DNA from: Acetobacteraceae bacterium
Lineage (GTDB): Bacteria; Pseudomonadota; Alphaproteobacteria; Acetobacterales; Acetobacteraceae
Assembly: GCA_025352375.1 (NCBI GenBank)
Contig: JANXTL010000189.1
Location: forward strand, 1-37,942
DNA: 37,942 bases
Direction of reading: 5' to 3'
Both the position numbers and the translations under genes were made by a program. The stretch's first letter is position 1, and each line of letters opens with the position of its first letter. The notes beneath the pieces are model-generated. The model ran no database searches. It had not been told where the DNA came from and saw only the letters and a program-made list of their open reading frames with translations. Below, in pieces: positions 22,331-37,942 of the stretch.

Positions 22331-22615
22331 ATGCCCAGCCTGCTGATCCGAAACGTCGATGAAGGATTGCGCGCCCGCCTCAAGGCCCGAGCGGCTGCAC
22401 ATCGGTGTTCGCTTGAAGAGGAGGTGCGAGAGACTCTGCGAGCCGCGGTCGCCCGCGAGGAGGCTCCGCCGCGAGAGCGGTTCGGCGATCTTGCGCAACG
22501 GTTGTTCGGCACCCTGGGCGGTACCGATCTCGATCTTCCGCCGCGCAGTTCCGAACCGGATCGTGCACTGCCCGATTTCTCGGGGCCGGAATACGATCCG
22601 CCGGGCTGGCGATGA
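22331..22615 (+). CDS. FitA-like ribbon-helix-helix antitoxin
   Basis: 94 aa. Residues 1-45 form an Arc/FitA-type ribbon-helix-helix: strand SLLIRNVDE, helix GLRARLKARAAAHRCS, then LEEEVRETLRAAV. The C-terminal half (FGDLAQRLFGTLGG, PDFSGPEYDPPGW) is the typical extended toxin-neutralising tail. The stop overlaps the toxin ATG (ATGA, 22612-22615). The dyad at 22290-22315 lies immediately upstream. Together these show a type II toxin-antitoxin module. Confidence 0.88.
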   Translation: MPSLLIRNVDEGLRARLKARAAAHRCSLEEEVRETLRAAVAREEAPPRERFGDLAQRLFGTLGGTDLDLPPRSSEPDRALPDFSGPEYDPPGWR

Positions 22616-23037
22616 TCCTCCTCGACACCAATGTCATCTCCGAGGTTACGAAGATCGGTGCGAACCAAGTGGTTCTTTCTTACGTCAACGGTTTGGCGCC
22701 GGAGACGATTTTTACGGCGGCGATATGCGAGGCTGAGATACGTTATGGCCTGCTGCTTCTTCCCGCTGGACGCAGGCGGGAATTATTGATCGCGCAAATG
22801 GCTGCGTTTTTCGACATTGCCCTCCGCGATCAGGTGCTGCGCTTCGATCGGGCATGCGCGGCGCTCTATGGCGAGATTCGGTCGGCGCGGGAGGCTGCCG
22901 GACGCCCAATATCGGCGGCGGACGCGATGATCGCGGCGACGGCGCGGGCTTATGGGGCCACTTTTATCGCGACCCGAAATACGCGGGACTTTGAGTTATG
23001 CGGCGTGGGGTTGGTCGACCCCTGGCGGGCGGCGTGA
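22612..23037 (+). CDS. PIN-domain ribonuclease toxin, FitB/VapC-like
   Basis: 141 aa PIN domain. The acidic residues expected for Mg-dependent RNase activity are present: D5 in LLDTNVISE, E42 in EAEIRYG, D104 in ISAADAMIA and D126 in ATRNTRDF. Length and motif spacing match FitB/VapC toxins. It is coupled to its antitoxin through ATGA. All catalytic positions look intact, so the module may be active. It ends 11 bp before the first 118-bp repeat. Confidence 0.9.
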   Translation: MILLDTNVISEVTKIGANQVVLSYVNGLAPETIFTAAICEAEIRYGLLLLPAGRRRELLIAQMAAFFDIALRDQVLRFDRACAALYGEIRSAREAAGRPISAADAMIAATARAYGATFIATRNTRDFELCGVGLVDPWRAA

Positions 23038-26848: not shown

Positions 26849-27097
26849 ATGGTTACCGTGGTTCGAGCCTACGGACTGCACATCGTCATCTTCGTCGACG
26901 ATCACCGTCCGGCGCATTTCCACGTGTTCGGTGACGGGCAGGCCAAGATCGATCTGTTGGGGCCCGGTGGGCCTCCCGTGTTGCTCTGGTCGGAAAACAT
27001 GACGAAGGCCGAGGTCCCCCGGGCGATGCGGACGGTGACGGAACAGCAATCCCTGCTGCTCCAACAATGGGAGCCTATCCATGGCCGACTTGACTGA
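26849..27097 (+). CDS. DUF4160 domain-containing protein
   Basis: 82 aa. The family signature is clear: YGLHIVIFVDDHRPAHFHVF, followed by AKIDL and a C-terminal helix ending LLLQQWEPIHGRLD. DUF4160 proteins are small, contain the conserved HxPHFHV-type motif (here RPAHFHV), and are usually adjacent to DUF2442, as here. No Shine-Dalgarno sequence stands out; the operator half-site ends 8 bp before the ATG. The gene overlaps DUF2442 by 17 bp. Toxin-like function has been suggested for such pairs by gene neighbourhood; it is not shown by sequence. Confidence 0.88.
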   Translation: MVTVVRAYGLHIVIFVDDHRPAHFHVFGDGQAKIDLLGPGGPPVLLWSENMTKAEVPRAMRTVTEQQSLLLQQWEPIHGRLD

Positions 27098-27488
27098 TAC
27101 CCAGCTTGACGCCGCCGCCGCCCGCGGCCGGATCGCGCGCATTTCGGAACCGCGTGCCACCAGCGCTTGGTACGATCGGGGGCGGGGGCATGTGGCTGTC
27201 GAACTGACCAACGGCAGCACGTTCAGCTTCCCGACCAGTCTCGCTCAGGGGCTGGAAAACGCCACGCCCGATCAGCTTGCCGATATCGAAATCCTCGGCG
27301 CCGGCTACGGTTTGCATTGGGAATCACTGGACGTCGACCTGTCTATCCCCGGGTTGGTGTCGGGGCTTTTCGGCACCAAGGCGCACATGGCGCGTCAGGC
27401 CGGTAAGGCAACATCGCCCGCCAAGGCCGCCGCTGCTCGGGCTAACGGCGCCAAGGGCGGCCGGCCGCGTTCGTCCGTCGACGCCTGA
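27081..27488 (+). CDS. DUF2442 domain-containing protein
   Basis: 135 aa starting MADLTDTQLDAAAARG. The DUF2442 core has the Tyr-Asp/Gly turn ATSAWYDRGRGHVAVELTNG, FSFPTSLAQGLENATPDQL and GLHWESLDVDLSIPGL. The C-terminal tail is basic and Ala/Lys-rich (KAAAARANGAKGGRPR), the form expected for non-specific nucleic-acid contact. It overlaps the DUF4160 gene by 17 bp. It is the likely DNA-binding partner of the pair. Confidence 0.88.
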   Translation: MADLTDTQLDAAAARGRIARISEPRATSAWYDRGRGHVAVELTNGSTFSFPTSLAQGLENATPDQLADIEILGAGYGLHWESLDVDLSIPGLVSGLFGTKAHMARQAGKATSPAKAAAARANGAKGGRPRSSVDA

Positions 27489-29184: not shown

Positions 29185-30219
29185 ATGGCCAAACTCATTC
29201 TGACCGGCGACGTCAATCTGATGAACGTCATCGACCCAGCGACGCCCTTCGCAAGGGTGGCCGAGGAATTCCGCGCAGCCGACATGGTATTTTGCAACCT
29301 GGAATGTTGCCTGTACACCCCGCCAGCGGCGCAATCCTTCCACAACGAAGGCTTCTTCGCCGACCCGGCGGTAGCCTCCGCGACACTGAAGGGCGCGGCA
29401 ATCGGCGCGGTCGGGATCGCCAACAACGTGAATTACGGCGAAGCGGCGATCCTGTCGTCGCTGGCGCACCTCGACGCGGCCGGCATCCCGCACACCGGTG
29501 CTGGCGCCAATGCAGATGCCGCCAAAGCGCCCGTCGTCGTCGAGCGGGCAGGCATCCGTTTCGGCTTCCTCCAACGCAGTTCGGTCTACTGGCCCACCAA
29601 CCATGAGGCCGGGCCGCACGATCCGGGCATCGCGGTGATCCGGGGCAACACCGCCTATCAGGTGCCGATGCACAAGACCCGGCCGGAAATCCCGCCGATG
29701 AACCGTCCCGGTATTCCGCCGATTATCGTGACCTGGGCCGAGCCCGATCATCTCCGGGCGTTTCGTGAAGATATCGTGGAACTACGAGCCAAAGCCGACA
29801 TCTTGGTGGCGTCGTGCCACTGGGGTCTTGGCAAGGATGTACTGCAATACATGCGCGACATCGCCCACGCCGCGATCGATGCCGGCGCGGACATCGTGGT
29901 CGGCCACGGTCCGCACTACGCCCTCGCTGTCGAGGTCTACCGCGGCAAGCCGATCTTCTTCGGGCTGGGCAGTTTTTCGTTCCATACCGGCCATGGCGGA
30001 AGGGCGCACGGCAACTGGATTGGCATGATGCCGCGCGTTGCCTTGGAAAAAGACGGGATTAGATCCGTCGCCTTCCAGTTCGTCCGCCGCAACGCCGCGA
30101 ATGAAACGGTGTTGTGCGCGCTGGCGGACGAGCAGGCGGAATTGGCTGACATCCAAGAACGCAGCGCCGCATACGGCACCACGCTCACACCCCACGGCGA
30201 CGAAGTAAGCGTGATTTAG
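29185..30219 (+). CDS. CapA family protein (calcineurin-like phosphoesterase fold)
   Basis: 344 aa from ATG 29185 (MAKLILTGDVNLMN). The CapA/PgsA pattern is visible: TGDVNL, ADMVFCNLE, GIANN, SCHWG and VVGHGPHYALAVEVYRGKPI with GLGSFSF. These provide the metal-binding Asp, Asn and His residues of a dinuclear phosphoesterase site. CapA proteins act in poly-gamma-glutamate export in some bacteria, but most are uncharacterised; no capB/capC lies here. It has no signal peptide. The stop TAG (30217-30219) is the first three bases of repeat copy 3. Confidence 0.9.
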   Translation: MAKLILTGDVNLMNVIDPATPFARVAEEFRAADMVFCNLECCLYTPPAAQSFHNEGFFADPAVASATLKGAAIGAVGIANNVNYGEAAILSSLAHLDAAGIPHTGAGANADAAKAPVVVERAGIRFGFLQRSSVYWPTNHEAGPHDPGIAVIRGNTAYQVPMHKTRPEIPPMNRPGIPPIIVTWAEPDHLRAFREDIVELRAKADILVASCHWGLGKDVLQYMRDIAHAAIDAGADIVVGHGPHYALAVEVYRGKPIFFGLGSFSFHTGHGGRAHGNWIGMMPRVALEKDGIRSVAFQFVRRNAANETVLCALADEQAELADIQERSAAYGTTLTPHGDEVSVI

Positions 30220-30334
30220 AGCGTGATCGCCTGAGGTTGACTTCAACCTCGGGCGTGAATCACCCTCTCAAACAAAGGCTTAGACCATGATCGAACGCCG
30301 AGATCGCGTGCAACCTCAAACGATCATGGTCTAG
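30217..30334 (+). repeat. 118-bp dispersed repeat, copy 3
   Basis: Identical to copy 1. Its first TAG is the stop codon of the CapA-like gene, and its terminal CTA (30331-30333) is, on the other strand, the TAG stop of uppP. The element therefore exactly fills the space between two convergent genes and closes both frames. Its two hairpins could terminate transcription from both sides. Confidence 0.92.
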
Positions 30335-31167
30335 AGAACGAACTTCAACAGGACGACGCTGATCCCACCGATCAGGAAGCAGTAGATCGCGAATGGGGTA
30401 AGAGCCCAGGAGTCCTGGTTTTTGAAATACCGCATCAGGAACCAGGTGCTCAGATAGGCGGTGATGCCCGCGGCCACTGCGGCGATCGCCGACATGGCGA
30501 ACACGCCCTGTGCCACATGCGCGTGCAGCAGTTTGGGCACTTCCAGCACCGTGGCTCCGAAGATGATGGGCGTGGCGATCAGGAAGGAAAAATGCGCCGA
30601 ACCTTCATGGTCGACGCCGCGCAGCAGGCCGCCGACGATCGTGACACCCGAGCGGGAGATCCCGGGGATCAGGGCCAGGCACTGAAAGCAGCCGATGATC
30701 AGCGCGTCGAGTTTGGTCAAGGTGGAGACCGGCCGATTGCCCTTGCCGCGCAGACTCTCCCCGAACAGCAGAACGACCCCGTTTGCTATTAAGAACGCGG
30801 CAGCGATCAGCGGCACGCCAAACAGGCCGCGCACCAGCTTCTCCAGTGCGAAGCCGACGATCACGGCCGGTATCGTCGCGATCACCACGAGCAGGAAGAC
30901 GCGCCGAGCTTCACTGACGTCGTGTTTGTCGCCAATGCCGAGGACGCCGGTCCCGATGGCCCACCAATCCCGCCAGAAATACGTCAGCAACGCGGTCGCG
31001 GTTCCTAGATGCAGGAACACCAGGAACGGCAGAAATTCAGGGGATTTCTGATCGATCCCGGTCTTGAACAGGGCGGGCAGCACGACCGCGTGGCCCAGGC
31101 TGCTGACGGGGAACAACTCCGTCGCCCCTTGCAGGATGGCGATCAGGATCGATTGCAGAGCGGTCAT
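30331..31167 (-). CDS. uppP: Undecaprenyl-diphosphatase (UppP/BacA)
   Basis: 278 aa, seven to eight membrane helices. The two family motifs are present: the Glu-rich segment QGATELFPVSSLGHAVV (usually EGxTEFLPISSTGH) and PGISRSGVTIVGGLLRG with the catalytic Ser/Arg. It dephosphorylates undecaprenyl diphosphate so the lipid carrier can be reused for peptidoglycan, and confers bacitracin tolerance when abundant. AGGA precedes the ATG. Note that the first motif has Gln where most members have Glu. Confidence 0.94.
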   Translation of the reverse strand: MTALQSILIAILQGATELFPVSSLGHAVVLPALFKTGIDQKSPEFLPFLVFLHLGTATALLTYFWRDWWAIGTGVLGIGDKHDVSEARRVFLLVVIATIPAVIVGFALEKLVRGLFGVPLIAAAFLIANGVVLLFGESLRGKGNRPVSTLTKLDALIIGCFQCLALIPGISRSGVTIVGGLLRGVDHEGSAHFSFLIATPIIFGATVLEVPKLLHAHVAQGVFAMSAIAAVAAGITAYLSTWFLMRYFKNQDSWALTPFAIYCFLIGGISVVLLKFVL

Positions 31168-31238
31168 AAAGGGTCCTGTGCGAATCGGCGTGGTGGTGGA
31201 CTGTACGGACAGGCGCCTTTTGTGTCATTGTGCCGCCC

Positions 31239-32279
31239 ATGGACGGGCATGAACACCATCATCGGGCGCATGACAACCGGGATTCCCCCCAGGGGCATTC
31301 CCCCCAGGGGCATTCCCCCCAGGGGCATTCCCCCGAGGGGCATTCCCCCCAGGGGCATTCCCCCAGGGGGCATTCCCCCGGGCACGCGCATCATCACCAC
31401 GCGCCTGCCCGGATGGACCGGGCATTCGCGGTGGGAGCAGCCGTCAATCTCGCATTCGTGGTGGGGGAAGTCGGATTTGGCGTCGCTGCCAATTCCATGG
31501 CTCTCATAGCCGACGCGGCCCATAACTTCGGCGACGTGCTCGGGCTGTTGCTGGCCTGGGGCGCGGCCTATCTGGGCCGGCGGCCGCCGACCAGCCGGCG
31601 CACCTATGGCTGGGGCCGGGGCACCATCCTGGCGGCCCTGGCCAACGCGTCGGTCCTGCTGATCGGGGTAGGTGCGATCGGGATCGAGGCCCTACACCGC
31701 CTGTCGAACCCGCAACCGGTGCAGACCGGGTTGGTCATGATTGTGGCGGCGGTGGGCATTCTGGTGAACGGCGGCAGCGCGCTGCTGTTTCTGCGCGACC
31801 GAGAACACGATCTGAACGTTCGGGCGCAATTCACGCATTTGGCCGGAGACGCGGCCATCGCGGCCGGCGTGGTGCTGGCAGCGCTGGCCATCCGGTTAAC
31901 CGGGCTTGTCTGGCTCGACCCAGCGGCAAGCCTGATCGTGGCCGCGCTGATCACCCTGGGAACCTGGGGCCTGCTGCGGGAATCGCTCGGGTTGGCACTG
32001 GACGCGGTCCCCGAGACGGTGAAACAGGATGAGGTCGCGGCCTTCCTCGCCAGCGTGCCGGGCGTGACCGAGGTGCACGATCTGCACATCTGGGGCCTGA
32101 GCACCACGGAAACCGCACTGACGGCGCATCTGGTGTACGCGGGGGAGGCAGAGGACCGCCGTCCGCACGAATTGTCGGCGGAGCTACGTCATCGTTTCGG
32201 CATCGGTCACGCAACGGTGCAAATCGAGAGCGACGCCGACGCGGCGTTATGCCGCCTGCGCCCAAACAACGTGGTCTGA
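31239..32279 (+). CDS. Cation diffusion facilitator (CzcD/ZitB-like)
   Basis: 346 aa from ATG 31239 (MDGHEHHH); a GTG at 31230 would add three residues and neither start has a strong ribosome-binding site. Residues 1-60 are His-rich with a pentapeptide repeat GHSPQ. Six membrane helices follow. The transport-site motifs are DAAHNFGD in helix 2 and HLAGDAA in helix 5, giving the expected His/Asp zinc ligands. The C-terminal cytoplasmic domain contains VTEVHDLHIWGLSTTE, the family hallmark. It exports Zn2+ or related divalent ions in exchange for protons. It is divergent from uppP. Confidence 0.94.
   Translation: MDGHEHHHRAHDNRDSPQGHSPQGHSPQGHSPEGHSPQGHSPRGHSPGHAHHHHAPARMDRAFAVGAAVNLAFVVGEVGFGVAANSMALIADAAHNFGDVLGLLLAWGAAYLGRRPPTSRRTYGWGRGTILAALANASVLLIGVGAIGIEALHRLSNPQPVQTGLVMIVAAVGILVNGGSALLFLRDREHDLNVRAQFTHLAGDAAIAAGVVLAALAIRLTGLVWLDPAASLIVAALITLGTWGLLRESLGLALDAVPETVKQDEVAAFLASVPGVTEVHDLHIWGLSTTETALTAHLVYAGEAEDRRPHELSAELRHRFGIGHATVQIESDADAALCRLRPNNVV
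31284..31379 (+). repeat. 15-bp coding tandem repeat in the CDF gene
   Basis: The unit GGGCATTCCCCCCAG encodes Gly-His-Ser-Pro-Gln. About six successive units can be read in frame; the later ones vary to GAG and AGG, giving Glu and Arg in the last position. Unit length is a multiple of three, so copy-number changes would keep the frame and alter the number of metal-binding His residues. The C-runs also invite slippage out of frame. Confidence 0.9.
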
Positions 32280-32295
32280 GCACAGGCGGGATCGG

Positions 32296-32937
32296 TCATT
32301 CCGTGATGTAGGGCTGGCCCCAGCGGTCCTGGTAAACGAAATCCGCGAGTTTCCCGCGGCCGACCGGCCCGAAATTGCCCATCGGGTAGCCGATCGGCAG
32401 AATAGCGTAGGACCGCACGCCCGGCGGCAGGCCCAACGCGCCGTCGGTTTCGGCTTCGAACAGTAAATGCCGCGTGGTCAGGGTCGAACCTAACCCCAGT
32501 GCGCGCGCCGCCAGCAGCATGTTCTGCACCGCGGGGTAGATGGACGCACCGGCCCAGCGCGGCGGCGGGTTGGGGCCCTCATCGATGCACGCCACGATCC
32601 AGACCGGAGCCTCATGATAGTGCTCGGTCAAATACTCCACCGCGCCGTGCTGACGCTTGTAGCGTTCGGGCGTCGCGCCGGGGGGAGGGGCGCTCGCGGC
32701 GTAGCGGGGCCCCACCACCTCATCGAACGCCTTTTTGTACCAGACCTGCACGGCCTTCTTGATGGCTGGATCCTTCACCACAAGGAAGCGCCACTTCTGA
32801 GTATTGCCGCCGTTCGCGGCGCAGGCGCCAGCTTCCAGAATTTTATGGATCAGCGCATCGGGCACGGGGTCCGGCTTTAACCGGCGCATGGAGCGCGTGG
32901 TGTGCATGATCTCGAACAGGCCGGGGTCGTCGCTCAT
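32296..32937 (-). CDS. Nitroreductase family protein
   Basis: 213 aa from ATG 32937 (MSDDPGLFEIMHTTRSMRR), chosen because GGAGG lies 8 nt upstream. FMN-binding signs are TTRSMRRLKPDPV, GACAANGGNTQKWRFLVV and the later GLGSTLTT with LPIGYPMG. Members reduce nitro groups, quinones or act as dehalogenases/flavin destruction enzymes using NAD(P)H. The His/Pro insert AASAPPPGATPE is longer than in NfsB. The start overlaps the end of an upstream broken frame by ATGA. Confidence 0.9.
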   Translation of the reverse strand: MSDDPGLFEIMHTTRSMRRLKPDPVPDALIHKILEAGACAANGGNTQKWRFLVVKDPAIKKAVQVWYKKAFDEVVGPRYAASAPPPGATPERYKRQHGAVEYLTEHYHEAPVWIVACIDEGPNPPPRWAGASIYPAVQNMLLAARALGLGSTLTTRHLLFEAETDGALGLPPGVRSYAILPIGYPMGNFGPVGRGKLADFVYQDRWGQPYITE

Positions 32938-33079
32938 GGTTGGATCCTCCGTTCTTCGTACCAGGCAATGATAGCAGGAACGGCGCGGGAGTCTCGGGGG
33001 GCCTGACCTTCCTGCGCGGTCACCGCGATGTCGTGCTTGTCGGTTCAACGAGGCGCAGCACGGCGGCGTCGAAGGGCAT
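32934..33079 (-). pseudogene. Frameshifted small gene upstream of the nitroreductase
   Basis: ATG at 33079 has GAGGAG 8 nt upstream and reads MPFDAAVLRLVE before stopping at a TGA near 33020. In a second frame the following DNA reads KHDIAVTAQEGQAPRDSR and AVPAIIAWYEERRIQP, ending with a TGA that overlaps the nitroreductase ATG (ATGA, 32937-32934). Joining the two frames would give a protein of about 48 aa. A one-base deletion near 33045 would explain it, either natural or a sequence error. No family recognised. Confidence 0.4.
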
Positions 33080-33229
33080 GGAAAGTTCTCCTCGCCGTTA
33101 CCAGATGTGCCGTTCCCGGCCTTTTGGCCACCCGGTCATCTGGCCGGGTTGTGCCCCGGCCATCCGGCCGATGCCCCTCGACGCTGAGACCTGCCACTCT
33201 GCCGCTACCGAAACAGGAGCACACCGACC
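33080..33229. other. Divergent intergenic region with GC hairpin
   Basis: GGCCGGG (33142-33148) and CCCGGCC (33155-33161) make a 7-bp stem with a 6-base loop, without a T-tract. The region must hold the promoter of the HtrA-like/LuxR pair. An AGGAG site precedes the ATG at 33230 by about 12 nt. No gene is seen. Confidence 0.4.
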
Positions 33230-34099
33230 ATGGACATCATTGAGCAACTCTCCACCGCGCTGGCCGACCGGGTGGCGGCGACCGGCCAAAGCGTAGTCTC
33301 CCTGCGCCTGGGTTCCCGCCCGCGCGCCGGCATCCTGTGGCGGCCGAACGTCGTCGTGACGTCGGAGCAGGTGGTGGGCGATCGCGACACCGTCACCGTC
33401 GCCCATGGGGGGCAGGAGGTCGCGGCAAAGCTCGCCGGCCGCGATCCCGGCACCAACGTGGCGGTGTTCCGCCTCGAAACGCCGCTGACCGGCACGCTGC
33501 CGCCCGTGGGGGCCGCGCCGCGCGTCGGGTCCCTGGCCCTGATGATTGGCGCCGGCACCGCGCGCCTGGCCATGGTGCACGCGGTCGGGCCGGAGTGGCA
33601 CAGCATGGCCGGCGGCCGCATCGAGGCGTTGATCCGCCTCGATGCCCGGCTGGGCGCCGACGAAGGCGGGATGGTGCTGGATCAGGCGGGCGGGTTGCTC
33701 GGCATGTCCACCTCCGGCCCGCGCCGCCGGGTGCTGGTCATCCCCGCCGCGACCATTTCTCGGGTTGTCGATCCCCTGTTGGAGCACGGCCACATGCCGC
33801 GCGGCTGGCTCGGCGTGGGGCTGCAATCGGTGGTCATCCCCGAGGGCTTGGTCGCGGTGGCCGGGCAGGGGCGCGGCGCCATGGTGCTCAATCTGGTGGC
33901 CGGCGCGCCCGCCGCCAAAGCCGGAGTCATGGCGGGCGACATTTTGCTCGTGGTCGATGGCTTCGCGTTCGGCCAAAATCGGCGGCTTTCCAAGGTTTTG
34001 CGCCCCGAGCGAATCGGGTCGGCGGTGGACGTCCGGCTGCTGCGGGCGGGCGAACCCAAGACCGTGTCCGTGGTGATCGCCGCGCGCCCGCAAGGATGA
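33230..34099 (+). CDS. HtrA/DegP-like protein with lost catalytic triad, plus PDZ domain
   Basis: 289 aa. The order trypsin-like domain then PDZ follows HtrA/DegP. Aligning by eye to the family landmarks, VVTSEQVVG (43-50) replaces VVTNNHVV, so the His is Gln47. GRDPGTNVAVF (70-80) replaces GRDPxxDLAV, so the Asp is Asn76. LGADEGGMVLD (141-151) replaces xxGNSGGPLxN, so the Ser is Glu145. All three catalytic residues are gone while the scaffold is kept. The PDZ domain (about 192-285) has RGWLGVGLQ, APAAKAGVMAGDILLVVDG. There is no signal peptide, so it is probably cytoplasmic. The stop overlaps the LuxR-type gene by ATGA. It is likely a non-enzymatic binding or sensing protein. Confidence 0.88.
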   Translation: MDIIEQLSTALADRVAATGQSVVSLRLGSRPRAGILWRPNVVVTSEQVVGDRDTVTVAHGGQEVAAKLAGRDPGTNVAVFRLETPLTGTLPPVGAAPRVGSLALMIGAGTARLAMVHAVGPEWHSMAGGRIEALIRLDARLGADEGGMVLDQAGGLLGMSTSGPRRRVLVIPAATISRVVDPLLEHGHMPRGWLGVGLQSVVIPEGLVAVAGQGRGAMVLNLVAGAPAAKAGVMAGDILLVVDGFAFGQNRRLSKVLRPERIGSAVDVRLLRAGEPKTVSVVIAARPQG

Positions 34100-34617
34100 G
34101 CCTGCGGGTCCGGCTTCTCGCGACCGACCCGGTCCGCCGGCATGGCCTGTGCGCCGTGCTGGCGGAGGCGGGGCACGCGGTGGTTACGGACGTGCCTGAC
34201 GTTGTCCTGTGCGATTCAGGGGCCGGTACGCCCCGGGAAGCCGAGGCGCCGGTTCTGGCCCTGACCGACCGCATCCCGGCCAACCCGCCCGCCGGAGTCT
34301 TGCCGCGCGACGCGACCCCCGAGCATATCGATGCGGCGTTGCGAGCGGTGGCGGCGGGGTTGATCGTACGGGCGCCTGGGCCGTCGGAGGCGGCGGGTTT
34401 CGCCATGGCCCCGGACGATTCCCCCCTGACCCCGCGGGAGACGGAAATCCTGACCCTGATCGGCCAGGGGTTCAGCAACAAAGCCGTCGCTCGGCGGCTG
34501 GGTATTTCGGTGCACACGGTGAAGTTTCACATCGAGGCGTTGTTCGGGAAGCTCGATGCCTCCAGCCGGGCGGAGGCAGTGGCGAAGGGGTTGGTGGGTG
34601 GGGTGATTGAGTTGTAG
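34096..34617 (+). CDS. LuxR/NarL-type transcriptional regulator with degenerate receiver
   Basis: 173 aa. The C-terminal about 65 residues are a clear LuxR helix-turn-helix: LTPRETEILTLIGQGFSNKA, VARRLGISVHTVKFHIEALF and the final helix. The N-terminal about 105 residues are receiver-like but reduced: RVRLLATDPVRRHGL has only one of the paired acidic residues, VVLCDSG keeps a possible acceptor Asp, and the conserved Lys is replaced by Arg (VLPRDA). Phosphorylation is therefore doubtful. It starts within the HtrA-like gene's stop (ATGA), so the two proteins are made together. Targets unknown. Confidence 0.88.
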   Translation: MSLRVRLLATDPVRRHGLCAVLAEAGHAVVTDVPDVVLCDSGAGTPREAEAPVLALTDRIPANPPAGVLPRDATPEHIDAALRAVAAGLIVRAPGPSEAAGFAMAPDDSPLTPRETEILTLIGQGFSNKAVARRLGISVHTVKFHIEALFGKLDASSRAEAVAKGLVGGVIEL

Positions 34618-34810
34618 GGTGGGGGGTAAGGCTGGTTTTCAACCCGGAGCGGACGTTCGTTACCGGGGTTCAACATAGACTTCCTCGCTGATGGGCGAAT
34701 TCTTGATAAAATAGGTTATCAAGAGGTCATGGCGAGGTAGGCCAGTTAGAAAACGGGGTGGCGCTTGACTTCGCCCATTTGATCGGTATATGCGTGCACG
34801 TCTGCATTGA
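34618..34810. other. Start of the AT-richer accessory patch
   Basis: AACCCGG (34641-34647) and CCGGGGTT (34663-34670) form an imperfect hairpin after the LuxR-type gene and could terminate it. TCTTGATAA (34701-34709) and TTATCAAGA (34716-34724) are perfect 9-bp arms with a 6-bp spacer, 87 bp before the next gene. The base composition drops from here to about 36440. Confidence 0.45.
34660..34743 (-). pseudogene. Possible C-terminal gene remnant
   Basis: On the minus strand one frame reads TGLPRHDLLITYFIKNSP then ISEEVYVEPR and stops at TAA 34662-34660. It looks like a genuine protein end, but the sequence upstream in that frame is low-quality Arg/Cys-rich and another frame carries MGEVKRHPVF up to a stop. 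I interpret it as a decayed gene end. The family is not recognised. Confidence 0.3.
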
Positions 34811-35314
34811 ATGGGAGCGCAGGCGTTGCCGCAAGTTACAAAGGACTGGATCCTTGGCATGGACAAAGCTCAATTAGAAAAAGTCCTCGCCCTTGGCGCC
34901 TATAATCGACGCGCTGTCCTACTTTTTATCCATACTGATGAATGGTTCCATGCACACTTTGACCGAGGGCGAAGCCGGAAGCAGAAAGAAGAAATATTCT
35001 GGGCCTTCTTCATTCCATATTATACGCTATGGGCTTCAATGGTCTATGTTGTCCACGAAGGGCTTACCGAACTAGAAGTTGAAGACAAAAAACTCGAAAA
35101 AATAAGAGTGGCTGTTGATATGCGTCTCTTAAAGAGGTTTAGGAACGCGACATTCCATTTTCAGACTAGATTTCGCAGCCCTAAACACGACGAGTTTATT
35201 ACGCAGAAGGGGTTCGGTATAGCGAGAGAATTGTTCGAGAGACAGGATTTTCTCGTCAGAAAAATGATCCGATTTAGCAAGGATAACCCGCATTCAGCAT
35301 CTTCAATTATGTGA
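34811..35314 (+). CDS. Hypothetical protein with HEPN-like Rx4H motif
   Basis: 167 aa, clearly AT-richer than its surroundings and with Lys-rich codon use, suggesting transfer. It is predicted all-helical. RFRNATFHFQ contains R111-N112-A-T-F-H116, the Rx4H form of the HEPN ribonuclease motif, at the start of a late helix as in HEPN domains. The preceding helices (EIFWAFFIPYYTLWASMVYV) are aromatic. I cannot name a family, and one short motif is weak evidence. The start is uncertain: ATG 34811 lacks a ribosome-binding site and ATG 34859 (MDKAQLEKVLAL) is an alternative. It converges on the DUF4238 gene. Confidence 0.6.
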   Translation: MGAQALPQVTKDWILGMDKAQLEKVLALGAYNRRAVLLFIHTDEWFHAHFDRGRSRKQKEEIFWAFFIPYYTLWASMVYVVHEGLTELEVEDKKLEKIRVAVDMRLLKRFRNATFHFQTRFRSPKHDEFITQKGFGIARELFERQDFLVRKMIRFSKDNPHSASSIM

Positions 35315-35363
35315 CCGATCCACCTCCCACGACCGTAATTCAGGCGTCCCGCATCGGACTGAC

Positions 35364-35415
35364 TTACTGGACTTGCAACCCTTTAATTTCATAGGGGTGA
35401 TTTTTCGTCCAGTAA
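35364..35415. terminator. Nested dyad between convergent accessory genes
   Basis: TTACTGGAC (35364-35372) and GTCCAGTAA (35407-35415) are perfect 9-bp arms. Inside them ACCCT and AGGGGT can form a second short stem, and a run of T (35401-35405) follows. Lying between two convergent genes, it is best read as a bidirectional terminator, though an integration or recombination site is possible. Confidence 0.4.
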
Positions 35416-35487
35416 CTTACCCGTTGATGGACGGTCACGCGATTTTGTGTGTGTCGGCGCAGAATGGGCTATATGTTAACTGGCGGC

Positions 35488-36438
35488 CTATTCTCTCGCA
35501 CGCACTCTGTCGCGCATACCGAATATAAAAGAGTCAGGCCCACGTATCTCGATGAATTCAACATCGATCTTGTGTCGCGCATACTTTCTAGCAAGAGATT
35601 CAACAGATGGATGCTTGCACGATGAGATAACCAAGTCCTCCGCACACTGCGCAATGGCACGGTTGATGCGACGGACGCCGCGAGTCTCAATTGTTGCATG
35701 GCGCACCGCCCCTTTGGGCGGTTGAGAAAAATCAGGGTCGGTCTGCGGTCTCTCCTTAGTGTCCCAATGCAGGCAGAGGTTGGGCGAGATAGGAAGATAT
35801 CTTGGCAAGCTTGGCTTGCCTCCTCGCCATATCCCCGGATCGTCAAAAGAGGCAGGATTATCACTCGTCAAAAATCCCGTGCCAGAGTTGTTCTTGATGA
35901 TGATCCAGTTGGAATTGTAAAGCGTCCATGCCAGTCTCATAACATGCCGAACTCGCATTGCCCGCATCGCGTCCGGCTCTGTGTCGAGGCGATACATCCC
36001 AGAGTCGAACGCTTGCAGCATCTCTTTTAGCTTCGCGTCGGGTCGGCCTGCTTGGGTTTTTAACGCGTCGGTTGCGCGAAGGTGCTGCATGACAGCATAA
36101 TCGTGCGATTTCACATCGACCCGCAGCCTCGCCGGAGTGCATACCAACAGATTGCCCCAATAGCCTGCGATGGCCATTTTCGTGGTCTGCGACGGCCTCC
36201 CAGTCTGCAAATCGGCAACTGCCGGATTCCATTCCGATTCAAACATCTTGCGATATTGTCCAAGGAGCGTTGGATCAGACAGAAAGTCTTTGATGATATC
36301 TCCGTCCAACTCCCGGCAAATGTCCTTAGGGTGGCAAGGAAAATATTTCCCGTCAGACTTGCGGTAGGCGTGAAGCATTTTGTCGGGTCCAACGAAATGC
36401 TTTAGGTAGGTCTCTGCAACATAGTGGTCTTTCGGCAT
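35488..36438 (-). CDS. DUF4238 domain-containing protein
   Basis: 316 aa. The family opening MPKDHYVAETYLKHFV (consensus HyVpxxYLrxF) is followed by the mid-domain FLTSDNPASF and later PISPNLCLHW, as in DUF4238. Gene order and the lower GC suggest an acquired accessory function. DUF4238 proteins are uncharacterised and often found on mobile or defence-rich islands. There is no membrane segment. ATG at 36438 is the only sensible start. It lies immediately downstream (2 bp) of the truncated resolvase. Confidence 0.85.
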   Translation of the reverse strand: MPKDHYVAETYLKHFVGPDKMLHAYRKSDGKYFPCHPKDICRELDGDIIKDFLSDPTLLGQYRKMFESEWNPAVADLQTGRPSQTTKMAIAGYWGNLLVCTPARLRVDVKSHDYAVMQHLRATDALKTQAGRPDAKLKEMLQAFDSGMYRLDTEPDAMRAMRVRHVMRLAWTLYNSNWIIIKNNSGTGFLTSDNPASFDDPGIWRGGKPSLPRYLPISPNLCLHWDTKERPQTDPDFSQPPKGAVRHATIETRGVRRINRAIAQCAEDLVISSCKHPSVESLARKYARHKIDVEFIEIRGPDSFIFGMRDRVRARE

Positions 36439-36440
36439 AC

Positions 36441-36797
36441 CTAGTTGAGCCTCGAAATCGTGCTGCTGCTGACGTTATAGCTCCGCGCGATCTCACTTAG
36501 CAACTCCCCACCCTCGCGCCGCGCAAGCGCCTCCTGCCTCTGGTGCGCCGTGAGCTTGAACGGTCGGCCGAGGCTCTTCCCTCGTGCCTTGGCGCGGGCG
36601 CGGCCTTCGCCTGTCCGTGCACGGATCAACTCGCGTTCGAACTCCGCCAGCCCGCCAAGCACGGTCAGCATCAGCCGCCCGTGCGCCGTCGTCGTGTCCG
36701 CCCATGTATCGCCGAGGGATCGGAAGCCCGCCTTGCGCTCGGTGATCGTGGCGAGTGTGTTCAACAGGTCGCGCGCGTTGCCCGGCTCGTCAGCCGT
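36441..36797 (-). pseudogene. 5'-truncated serine recombinase (resolvase family)
   Basis: The frame reads RDLLNTLATITERKAGFRSL, DTWADTTTAHGRLMLTVLGG, LAEFERELIRARTGEGRARA and a C-terminal helix-turn-helix (LLSEIARSYNVSSSTISRLN). This is the second half of a Tn3-type/Hin-like resolvase. The N-terminal catalytic portion with the nucleophilic Ser and Arg residues is absent: the frame meets a TGA at 36800-36798 just upstream of RDLLNT. An internal ATG (36764) could make a 107-aa DNA-binding fragment. It marks an old mobile-element junction at the edge of the AT-richer patch. Confidence 0.8.
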
Positions 36798-36889
36798 TCA
36801 AGCGATTGCCCACACCCAGCCATTGGCACCGCTTGACCCCCGCCCCAGCCCCTCCCACCCTGCGCCCAACCGACAAATGGGAGCCCGCC

Positions 36890-37942
36890 ATGCCGCTTCT
36901 CGCCCTTCCCGCCGTCTTCATGCGCGGCGGCACCAGCCGAGCCGTCATGTTCCACGCGAAGGACCTGCCGGAGCGGGCGGCCTGGGACCCCATCTTCATG
37001 GCCGCCATGGGCACTCCAGACCCCAACGGCCGCCAACTCAACGGCATGGGCGGCGGCATTTCCTCGCTCTCGAAAGTCTGCGTCCTGGCCCCCTCCGCCC
37101 GAGACGATGCAGACATAGACTACACCTTCGCCCAGGTGCAGATCAAAGACGCCTCCGTCGACTACCGCGGCAACTGCGGCAACATGTCCTCCGCCGTCGG
37201 CCCTTTCGCGGTGGATGAGGGCATCGTCCGCCCCAACGGCGAGACCGCCGTGGTGCGCATCTTCAACACCAACACCCGGAAAATCATCCGCTCGACCTTT
37301 CCTCTACAAGATGGCCGCGCCGCAACGGACGGCACCATGGCGATCCCGGGCGTCCACGGCTTCGGCGCCCCCGTGAAGCTGGACTTCCTGACCCCAGGCG
37401 GTGCCACCACCGGCAAGCTGCTGCCCACCGGCCACGTAACGGACTGGCTGGACGTGGAGGGTCTCGGCAGGTTGGAAGTCTCCTGCGTCGACGCCGCCAA
37501 CGCCTGCGTGTTCGTGCGCGCCCGCGACCTCGGCCTCACCGGGCGGGAACTGCCGGACGCGCTGGACGCCAACACCGACCTGCTGGCCACGCTGCAAAAA
37601 ATCCGCCGCGCCGCCTCCGTCGCCATGGGCATCGCCAAGGACGAGAATGAGGCCCGCACCATCGCCGGCGTCCCCATCATCGGCTTTGTCGCCCCCGCCA
37701 TGGATGCCCCCACCCTGTCCGGCATCCCCATCGCCGCGTCCGAGGTCGACCTGACCGCCCGCTTCCTGTCCAACGGCCAACCTCACAGAGCACTGCCCCT
37801 GACCGCGTCGCTGTGCACGGCGGTCGCGGCGCGGATCGAGGGCACCGTCGCCCACCAGGCCGCCGGAGGCGCGACGGACGGACCCATCCGCATCGGCATG
37901 CCCTCCGGCATCCTGACGGTGGATGCCGACGTCGGCCGCGAC
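36890..37942 (+). CDS. PrpF/AcnD-accessory family isomerase (partial, runs off the window)
   Basis: At least 351 codons from ATG 36890, with GGGAG 6 nt upstream; the frame is still open at the window end. The PrpF/DUF453 pattern is clear: PAVFMRGGTSRAVMFHAKDL, NGMGGGISSLSKVCVL with a conserved Lys, and YRGNCGNMSSAVGPFAV with the catalytic Cys in GNCGN. FNTNTRKII and the second-half repeat of the diaminopimelate-epimerase-like fold follow. Members isomerise 2-methyl-trans-aconitate in the methylcitrate cycle or 4-oxalomesaconate in gallate breakdown; neighbours give no clue which applies. Typical length is about 380-400 aa, so little is missing. Confidence 0.9.
   Translation, partial: MPLLALPAVFMRGGTSRAVMFHAKDLPERAAWDPIFMAAMGTPDPNGRQLNGMGGGISSLSKVCVLAPSARDDADIDYTFAQVQIKDASVDYRGNCGNMSSAVGPFAVDEGIVRPNGETAVVRIFNTNTRKIIRSTFPLQDGRAATDGTMAIPGVHGFGAPVKLDFLTPGGATTGKLLPTGHVTDWLDVEGLGRLEVSCVDAANACVFVRARDLGLTGRELPDALDANTDLLATLQKIRRAASVAMGIAKDENEARTIAGVPIIGFVAPAMDAPTLSGIPIAASEVDLTARFLSNGQPHRALPLTASLCTAVAARIEGTVAHQAAGGATDGPIRIGMPSGILTVDADVGRD

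Follow-up and report, generated by a model that had tools for sequence, protein, structure and literature searches.

A divergent HEPN-like protein and a DUF4238 protein, probably separate cargo, in a low-GC island of an Acetobacteraceae genome

Introduction

What does a short AT-rich block between a LuxR-type gene and a PrpF gene carry, and do its genes make up one system or several? The question is raised by a contig of an Acetobacteraceae bacterium (GenBank assembly GCA_025352375.1, contig JANXTL010000189.1; 5.1 Mb genome in 355 contigs), whose positions 1 to 37,942 were analysed in full and are called the window here. An initial annotation, made from the letters of the window, had placed an AT-richer island at 34660–36800 and described in it a HEPN-like candidate with an Rx4H motif, a DUF4238 protein, gene debris and half a serine resolvase, which it took for possible defence cargo.

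Results

The low-GC block and its borders

GC content was 0.492 in both 34501–35500 and 35001–36000 and 0.526 in 35501–36500, that is, 49–53% in the block compared with 0.61–0.73 on both flanks, and the proposed island was thereby borne out. The island proper, to which no strand is assigned, spans 34623..36826 (2.2 kb) as delimited by its borders and GC, and was not found in relatives. To its left lies the LuxR-type gene (34096–34617; GerE, E = 1.6e-17) and to its right the PrpF gene (PF04303, E = 1.3e-104). The block contains a 167-aa ORF on the plus strand, a 316-aa DUF4238 gene on the minus strand and a partial serine recombinase, also on the minus strand; the ORF strands confirm that the first two are convergent. 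What had been called gene debris came down to the truncated recombinase, nothing else in the block being recognisable.

To map the borders, window positions 30000–37942 were compared by BLAST with 52 loci, of which two were the window's own. DNA similarity ends at 34615–34622 in relatives in which the LuxR-type gene is retained; on the other side it begins at 36826–36833 in four close PrpF relatives (L077, L078, L079 and L081) and at or near PrpF itself in most other relatives. The LuxR-side flank is kept in the loci of 11 relatives and the PrpF side in other loci. No shared empty site was found among the relatives' loci compared with the window, and the gene lying upstream of PrpF varies, as does the one downstream of the LuxR-type gene. 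Because the neighbours of the conserved flanks differ between relatives in this way, the insertion event is not reconstructable.

The best plasmid DNA matches to the block, among the 20 of 70 records listed, cover only the recombinase, at ~68–81% identity. Between the convergent genes a 9-bp inverted repeat (35364..35407) would form a weak hairpin (fold z = –1.97). A general repeat search showed no attC-type repeat family flanking the window's HEPN-like gene. By their sequences, both intact genes look like mobile defence cargo.

Elsewhere in the window, two plus-strand ORFs were picked out by eye, one PIN/VapC-like at a local GC dip (22612–23034) and one cation-efflux-like with a tandem His-rich HSPQG repeat near its start (31230–32279). 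A pair of small plus-strand ORFs at 26849–27485 resembles, by eye, DUF4160 and DUF2442.

The serine recombinase is a remnant

The recombinase is represented by its C-terminal part (36441..36775, minus strand; approximately residues 70–180 of 181). The fragment at 36441–36764 matches only residues 84–144 of the resolvase domain, plus the HTH, and its reading frame stops 2 nt ahead of the DUF4238 start codon. Compared with a 181-aa recombinase from an Acidiphilium plasmid, it is without about the first 69 residues, and a serine-bearing N-terminus was absent from all three minus frames upstream. The fragment thus lacks the N-terminal catalytic serine and does not qualify as a functional serine recombinase, in keeping with its earlier description as half a resolvase.

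A divergent family with a conserved R-N-x3-H-x-Q motif

The 167-aa protein (34811..35314, plus strand) was characterised from its ORF, a family alignment, a structural model and its structural neighbours; an alternative ATG at 34860, giving 151 aa, suits the N-terminus of its relatives better. It had no match at E ≤ 1 in NCBIfam, PADLOC, PHROGs or Pfam, its sequence searches of the PDB gave chance matches or none, and no match was found on plasmids or in phage records. A first scan of the genome collection with the single protein yielded 0 relatives among 196 pattern matches; an alignment-based scan of the species-level collection confirmed 36 relatives among 65 pattern matches, and one further locus came from a viral contig. 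About a dozen phyla are represented (Pseudomonadota, Planctomycetota, Acidobacteriota, Nitrospirota, Bacteroidota, Verrucomicrobiota, Bacillota, Actinomycetota, Elusimicrobiota, Myxococcota, Margulisbacteria and candidate-phyla-radiation groups), and one locus is from the window's own family (Roseomonas sp. GC11, L015). Members are very divergent, most being 130–190 aa long as read from the loci; the branch leading to the window protein itself is very long (4.48), and the N-terminal half of that protein aligns poorly. Judged by these searches, this is a family that lacks a passing model in all four libraries; it probably lies within a known superfamily.

Residues 111–118, RNATFHFQ (35141..35164, plus strand), form a predicted active-site motif, R-N-x3-H-x-Q, that is conserved in relatives. 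A single-sequence Rx4H is weak evidence because 48% of shuffles of the window protein carry it, and it is conservation in relatives that carries the case. The stricter R[NDH]x3H arose in 6% of shuffles and is present in 42 of 183 ORFs of 120–220 aa, a count that includes the family's own members. R-N-x3-H-x-Q occurs in all 38 rows of the family alignment A3, but 37 of these were fetched by motif-requiring scans; the species-level scan demanded [FY]RN[AG][TV][FL]H[FY]Q, which makes motif conservation in those rows circular. Four relatives that came from whole-protein or two-row-profile searches (L003, L005, L006 and L007) all have RNx3HxQ. A motif-blind profile, truncated before the motif and run on 318 + 293 genomes, recovered the window's own gene, the already known G471 (L005/L122) and a new relative in G1131 (L123, RNGIFHYQ). 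Its match in G1169 was an HflC-like protein and was rejected as a false positive. R111, N112, H116 and Q118 are thus kept in 5/5 relatives found without the motif pattern (L123 and the four above), as Rx4-6H conservation in HEPN proteins leads one to expect, and the lack of conservation that would speak against the assignment was not seen. N112, matching the N, D or H that follows R in the superfamily, is invariant in alignment A2 (6 rows) and in A3 (38 rows, pattern-selected), and E83 is near-invariant (>90% conserved in A3).

Predicted structure and HEPN membership

The AlphaFold2 model made from the 38-row alignment (pLDDT 88.1, pTM 0.82) has helices at 19–49, 56–87, 93–101, 104–115 and 134–157. 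In the HEPN layout, as given in the available sections of the superfamily survey (PMC3710099), the motif ends helix 3, a polar residue follows R, an acidic residue is often found in helix 2, and inserts occur between helices 2 and 3. The model agrees with this layout: R111, with N112 next to it, is near the end of helix 104–115 and H116 just past it, which places the motif at the end of helix 3 and the start of the loop to helix 4; E83 lies in helix 56–87, the modelled helix 2; and helix 93–101 is an insert between helices 2 and 3.

Foldseek with this model gave no match at E ≤ 0.001 in the PDB or BFVD. In VIA-align, 13 of the 26 rows with Z ≥ 6.0 were HEPN-type structures (3jrt, 8xeh, 7ae6, 8yuf, 8xdj, 7ae9, 7ae2, 7ae8, 1jog, 9bj7, 7bxo, 4nqf and 9bj5), all at Z < 8, in a range (Z < 13) that is common and in which helical bundles may share a common arrangement only; HEPN families missing from the rows are not thereby excluded. 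Among them, 7bxo is a toxin-antitoxin complex, presumably of the HEPN/MNT kind. The best HEPN row was 3jrt (Z 7.8, 136 residues, 3.9 Å) and the top row was the unrelated SUGP1 (Z 7.9).

For two divergent family members the only Pfam match was PF18730, HEPN_Cthe2314 (E = 0.0099 and 0.045); it spans the motif in register, with scores that are sub-threshold and stand amid other chance matches of similar E-value. No HEPN_Cthe2314 members were found in 22 relatives or 14 controls. An alignment of HepT from relatives' genomes, the one HEPN family compared by hhalign, gave no profile match to the family (probability 0.2%; negative control with DUF4238, 0.1%). Remote profile searches were all that joined many families to the superfamily in the HEPN survey, according to its available sections (PMC3710099). 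The earlier HEPN proposal is supported by the conserved motif, the helix layout and the VIA-align rows, and found no significant counterpart in the Foldseek, Pfam or HepT comparisons. We conclude that membership, as judged from sequence and model, would rest on layout and motif rather than on statistical homology; with that basis stated, the 167-aa protein very probably has a HEPN-type fold.

Occurrence and neighbourhoods

The occurrence of the gene is strain-restricted. Own genome included, it was found in 1/33 genomes of the genus, 2/299 of the order and 3/299 of the family (the last with a two-row profile), and the family-level carriers include G195, G723 and G143. The window's genome also holds a decayed second copy (C229:1327–1491, minus strand; L002) adjoining a leuA-like ORF, with 53% identity over residues 107–161 and three stops, which points to repeated gain and loss of the gene. 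HepT-like PF01934 proteins are common in the window's genus (12/22 relatives) and occur at four places in the window's own genome.

The initial annotation had called for a check of conserved neighbourhoods. When all ORFs in 37 loci were clustered by BLAST, the largest cluster was the family itself, and no recurring partner gene was found save in close genomes (Bradyrhizobium, two Nitrospirota) and in a few groups of common genes from 2–3 loci. Neighbouring genes encode TIR, reverse transcriptase, KAP ATPase, DNA methylase and integrase domains, and plain housekeeping genes are also frequent. PADLOC defence models matched both near and far ORFs (125 and 121, respectively; the sets omit the near-duplicate L022 and ORFs <120 or >900 aa, and of 127 near ORFs L039:9031–9489 and L045:6183–6647 were also left out of the scan). 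The defence link of the HEPN-like gene is only suggestive.

In three Bradyrhizobium loci (L039, L042 and L043) the gene is divergent from, and 58–106 bp away from, a GajA-type (Gabija) gene (PADLOC, best E = 2e-202, three members; adjacency read by eye), after which an apparent helicase gene comes next, likewise by eye. At L005:1474–2384 (minus strand), beside an integrase-like ORF, two HEPN-like genes are adjacent, the second with a weak match to HEPN_RiboL-PSP (E = 1.8e-4).

Two Vibrio loci, L036 and L038, have ~120-bp repeats ending in GCGTTA(G/T) between their ORFs, and the gene stands alone between two of these VCR-type repeats, a context that marks it as a single-gene integron cassette. 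In L036 the copy is truncated to 105 aa, and the L038 cassette has no room for a second protein gene. That the gene occupies a cassette by itself and has no recurring partner speaks for a protein able to function with no linked antitoxin, and on balance we favour the view that it acts alone.

The alternative that survives best, though an improbable one, is a HEPN-fold toxin held in check by an unlinked or non-protein antitoxin or by antisense RNA, in an addiction element that would retain mobile DNA and have no anti-phage role. Structures of HEPN toxins from HepT/MNT pairs are among the VIA-align neighbours, integrons often carry toxins according to the available sections of PMC3710099, and the decayed second copy would fit such an element; the 37 loci lack a nucleotidyltransferase or any other recurring partner, and another protein gene would not fit into the L038 cassette, both of which count against it.

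Discussion

A proposed function for the HEPN-like protein

We propose that the island is horizontally acquired cargo that would have remained after truncation of its recombinase, that the 167-aa gene may encode a divergent and so far uncatalogued HEPN-superfamily protein working alone, and that the DUF4238 gene would be independent of it; the explanation as a whole seems to us rather probable. The protein would most likely form a homodimer and act as a metal-independent endoribonuclease, His116, together with Arg111 and Asn112 and aided by Glu83, making the RNA 2'-OH attack the phosphodiester bond; RNase chemistry is known for other HEPN proteins (PMC3710099, available sections). Phage infection or stress might be what releases it from an inactive or poorly expressed state, whereupon it would cut cellular RNA and stop growth.

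That the protein is a catalytic RNase is likely, judging by its sequence and by analogy with characterised HEPN proteins. A non-catalytic, HEPN-like RNA-binding or regulatory protein has a small chance by comparison: some HEPN families are inactive according to the same survey sections (PMC3710099) and no biochemical data for the family were found in the literature, but few positions are better conserved than R, N, H and the acidic residue of helix 2, which argues for chemistry. Equally slim is the chance that the protein is an unrelated helical bundle with a coincidental Rx4H. The frequency of that motif in shuffles and the lack of a significant Foldseek or HepT profile match are what such a bundle would produce; against it, the two true relatives recovered by the motif-blind profile, the window protein aside, both carry the motif, and helix layout and motif position agree with HEPN.

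For the preferred reading, an RNase acting alone, an anti-phage role falls slightly short of an even chance. Doubtful is the stronger idea of a widespread, partnerless one-gene defence RNase, small and self-inhibited, that would be spread over about a dozen phyla in single-gene integron cassettes and as island cargo and fire on phage infection without a linked antitoxin or sensor. If right, a broadly distributed family missed by four model libraries would join a superfamily central to anti-phage immunity, and the question would arise how a HEPN RNase without linked antitoxin or sensor is kept off.

The DUF4238 gene as independent cargo

The DUF4238 protein (316 aa; 35488..36438, minus strand) has a complete domain because its match to PF14022 (E = 2e-24) spans profile positions 1–280 of 281, and this part of the initial annotation held. 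It is a stand-alone complete PF14022 protein, as one-gene DUF4238 defence would have it. Sequence searches of the PDB gave chance matches or none, and structure prediction from three sequences reached a pLDDT of 31.8. Relatives occur in six plasmid records, including rhizobial plasmids, and two more in viral contigs; in the four plasmid regions opened they adjoin HipA, HTH, AAA ATPase + HNH, AbiJ-NTD4, Fic, abortive-infection and VapC genes. In the available part of their study, Rousset et al. (2022; PMC9122126) describe a single DUF4238 protein from a P2 hotspot that gave strong T7 resistance, with a molecular function then unknown, and DUF4238 is listed among defence systems in the accessible portions of later surveys. 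By analogy, the gene is an independent one-gene anti-phage candidate, and we lean moderately towards an anti-phage role for it. The initial idea of defence cargo thus gains from the published anti-T7 member and the defence-type plasmid neighbours of DUF4238, whereas for the HEPN-like gene the link is only suggestive. For the DUF4238 family, whose molecular function was described as unknown in 2022, the window supplies a further occurrence in an accessory island.

That the two intact genes might be separate cargo had also been suggested, and the BLAST clustering revealed no relative of the window's DUF4238 protein in any of the 37 related loci (0/37); they are probably separate. That they form one two-gene system is highly improbable, their sharing of a 2.2-kb block being outweighed by their convergent orientation, by the lack of a shared neighbour family in the clustering and by their distribution, the HEPN-like gene being present in G195, G723 and G143 and a DUF4238 relative in 1/249 family genomes, the window's own (G723 is among those without a match).

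Comparison with known systems

Vpc_cass2 (3jrt), the best HEPN structural match, is a four-helix bundle, as predicted for the window protein, and, like the Vibrio members of the family, comes from an integron cassette; the two proteins have no detectable sequence similarity. It is listed as a HEPN protein with Rx4-6H in the available sections of PMC3710099, and the accessible part of its 2013 structure paper (PMC3548836) describes how a loop disrupts helix 4 and names Shewanella and Moritella as sources of close homologues. HEPN_Cthe2314 matches two divergent members in register across the motif, below its curated cut-off, but not the window protein itself; no fusion or operon is reported for it in the available survey sections (PMC3710099), and in having neither it resembles the family described here.

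HepT of the HepT/MNT pairs (PF01934) has the HEPN fold predicted for the window protein and shares its Rx4H-type motif (rows 8xeh, 7ae6 and others). Such a pair requires an adjacent MNT gene, whereas the neighbours here are the LuxR-type and DUF4238 genes; the window family has H-x-Q where HepT alignment A10 has H-x-Y, with no profile-profile match between them. DS-11 (NF053863), described in the available part of PMC13092281 as a one-protein CBS + HEPN anti-phage system, offers a one-gene HEPN likeness, and 3/38 family members match it weakly (best E = 0.0022); it differs in its CBS domain, none of which was matched in the window protein or family members. For the second gene, the closest parallel is the DUF4238 anti-T7 protein of P2-like prophages (PMC9122126, available part), a single gene with the same Pfam domain, to which the window's DUF4238 protein is likened by domain rather than by identity.
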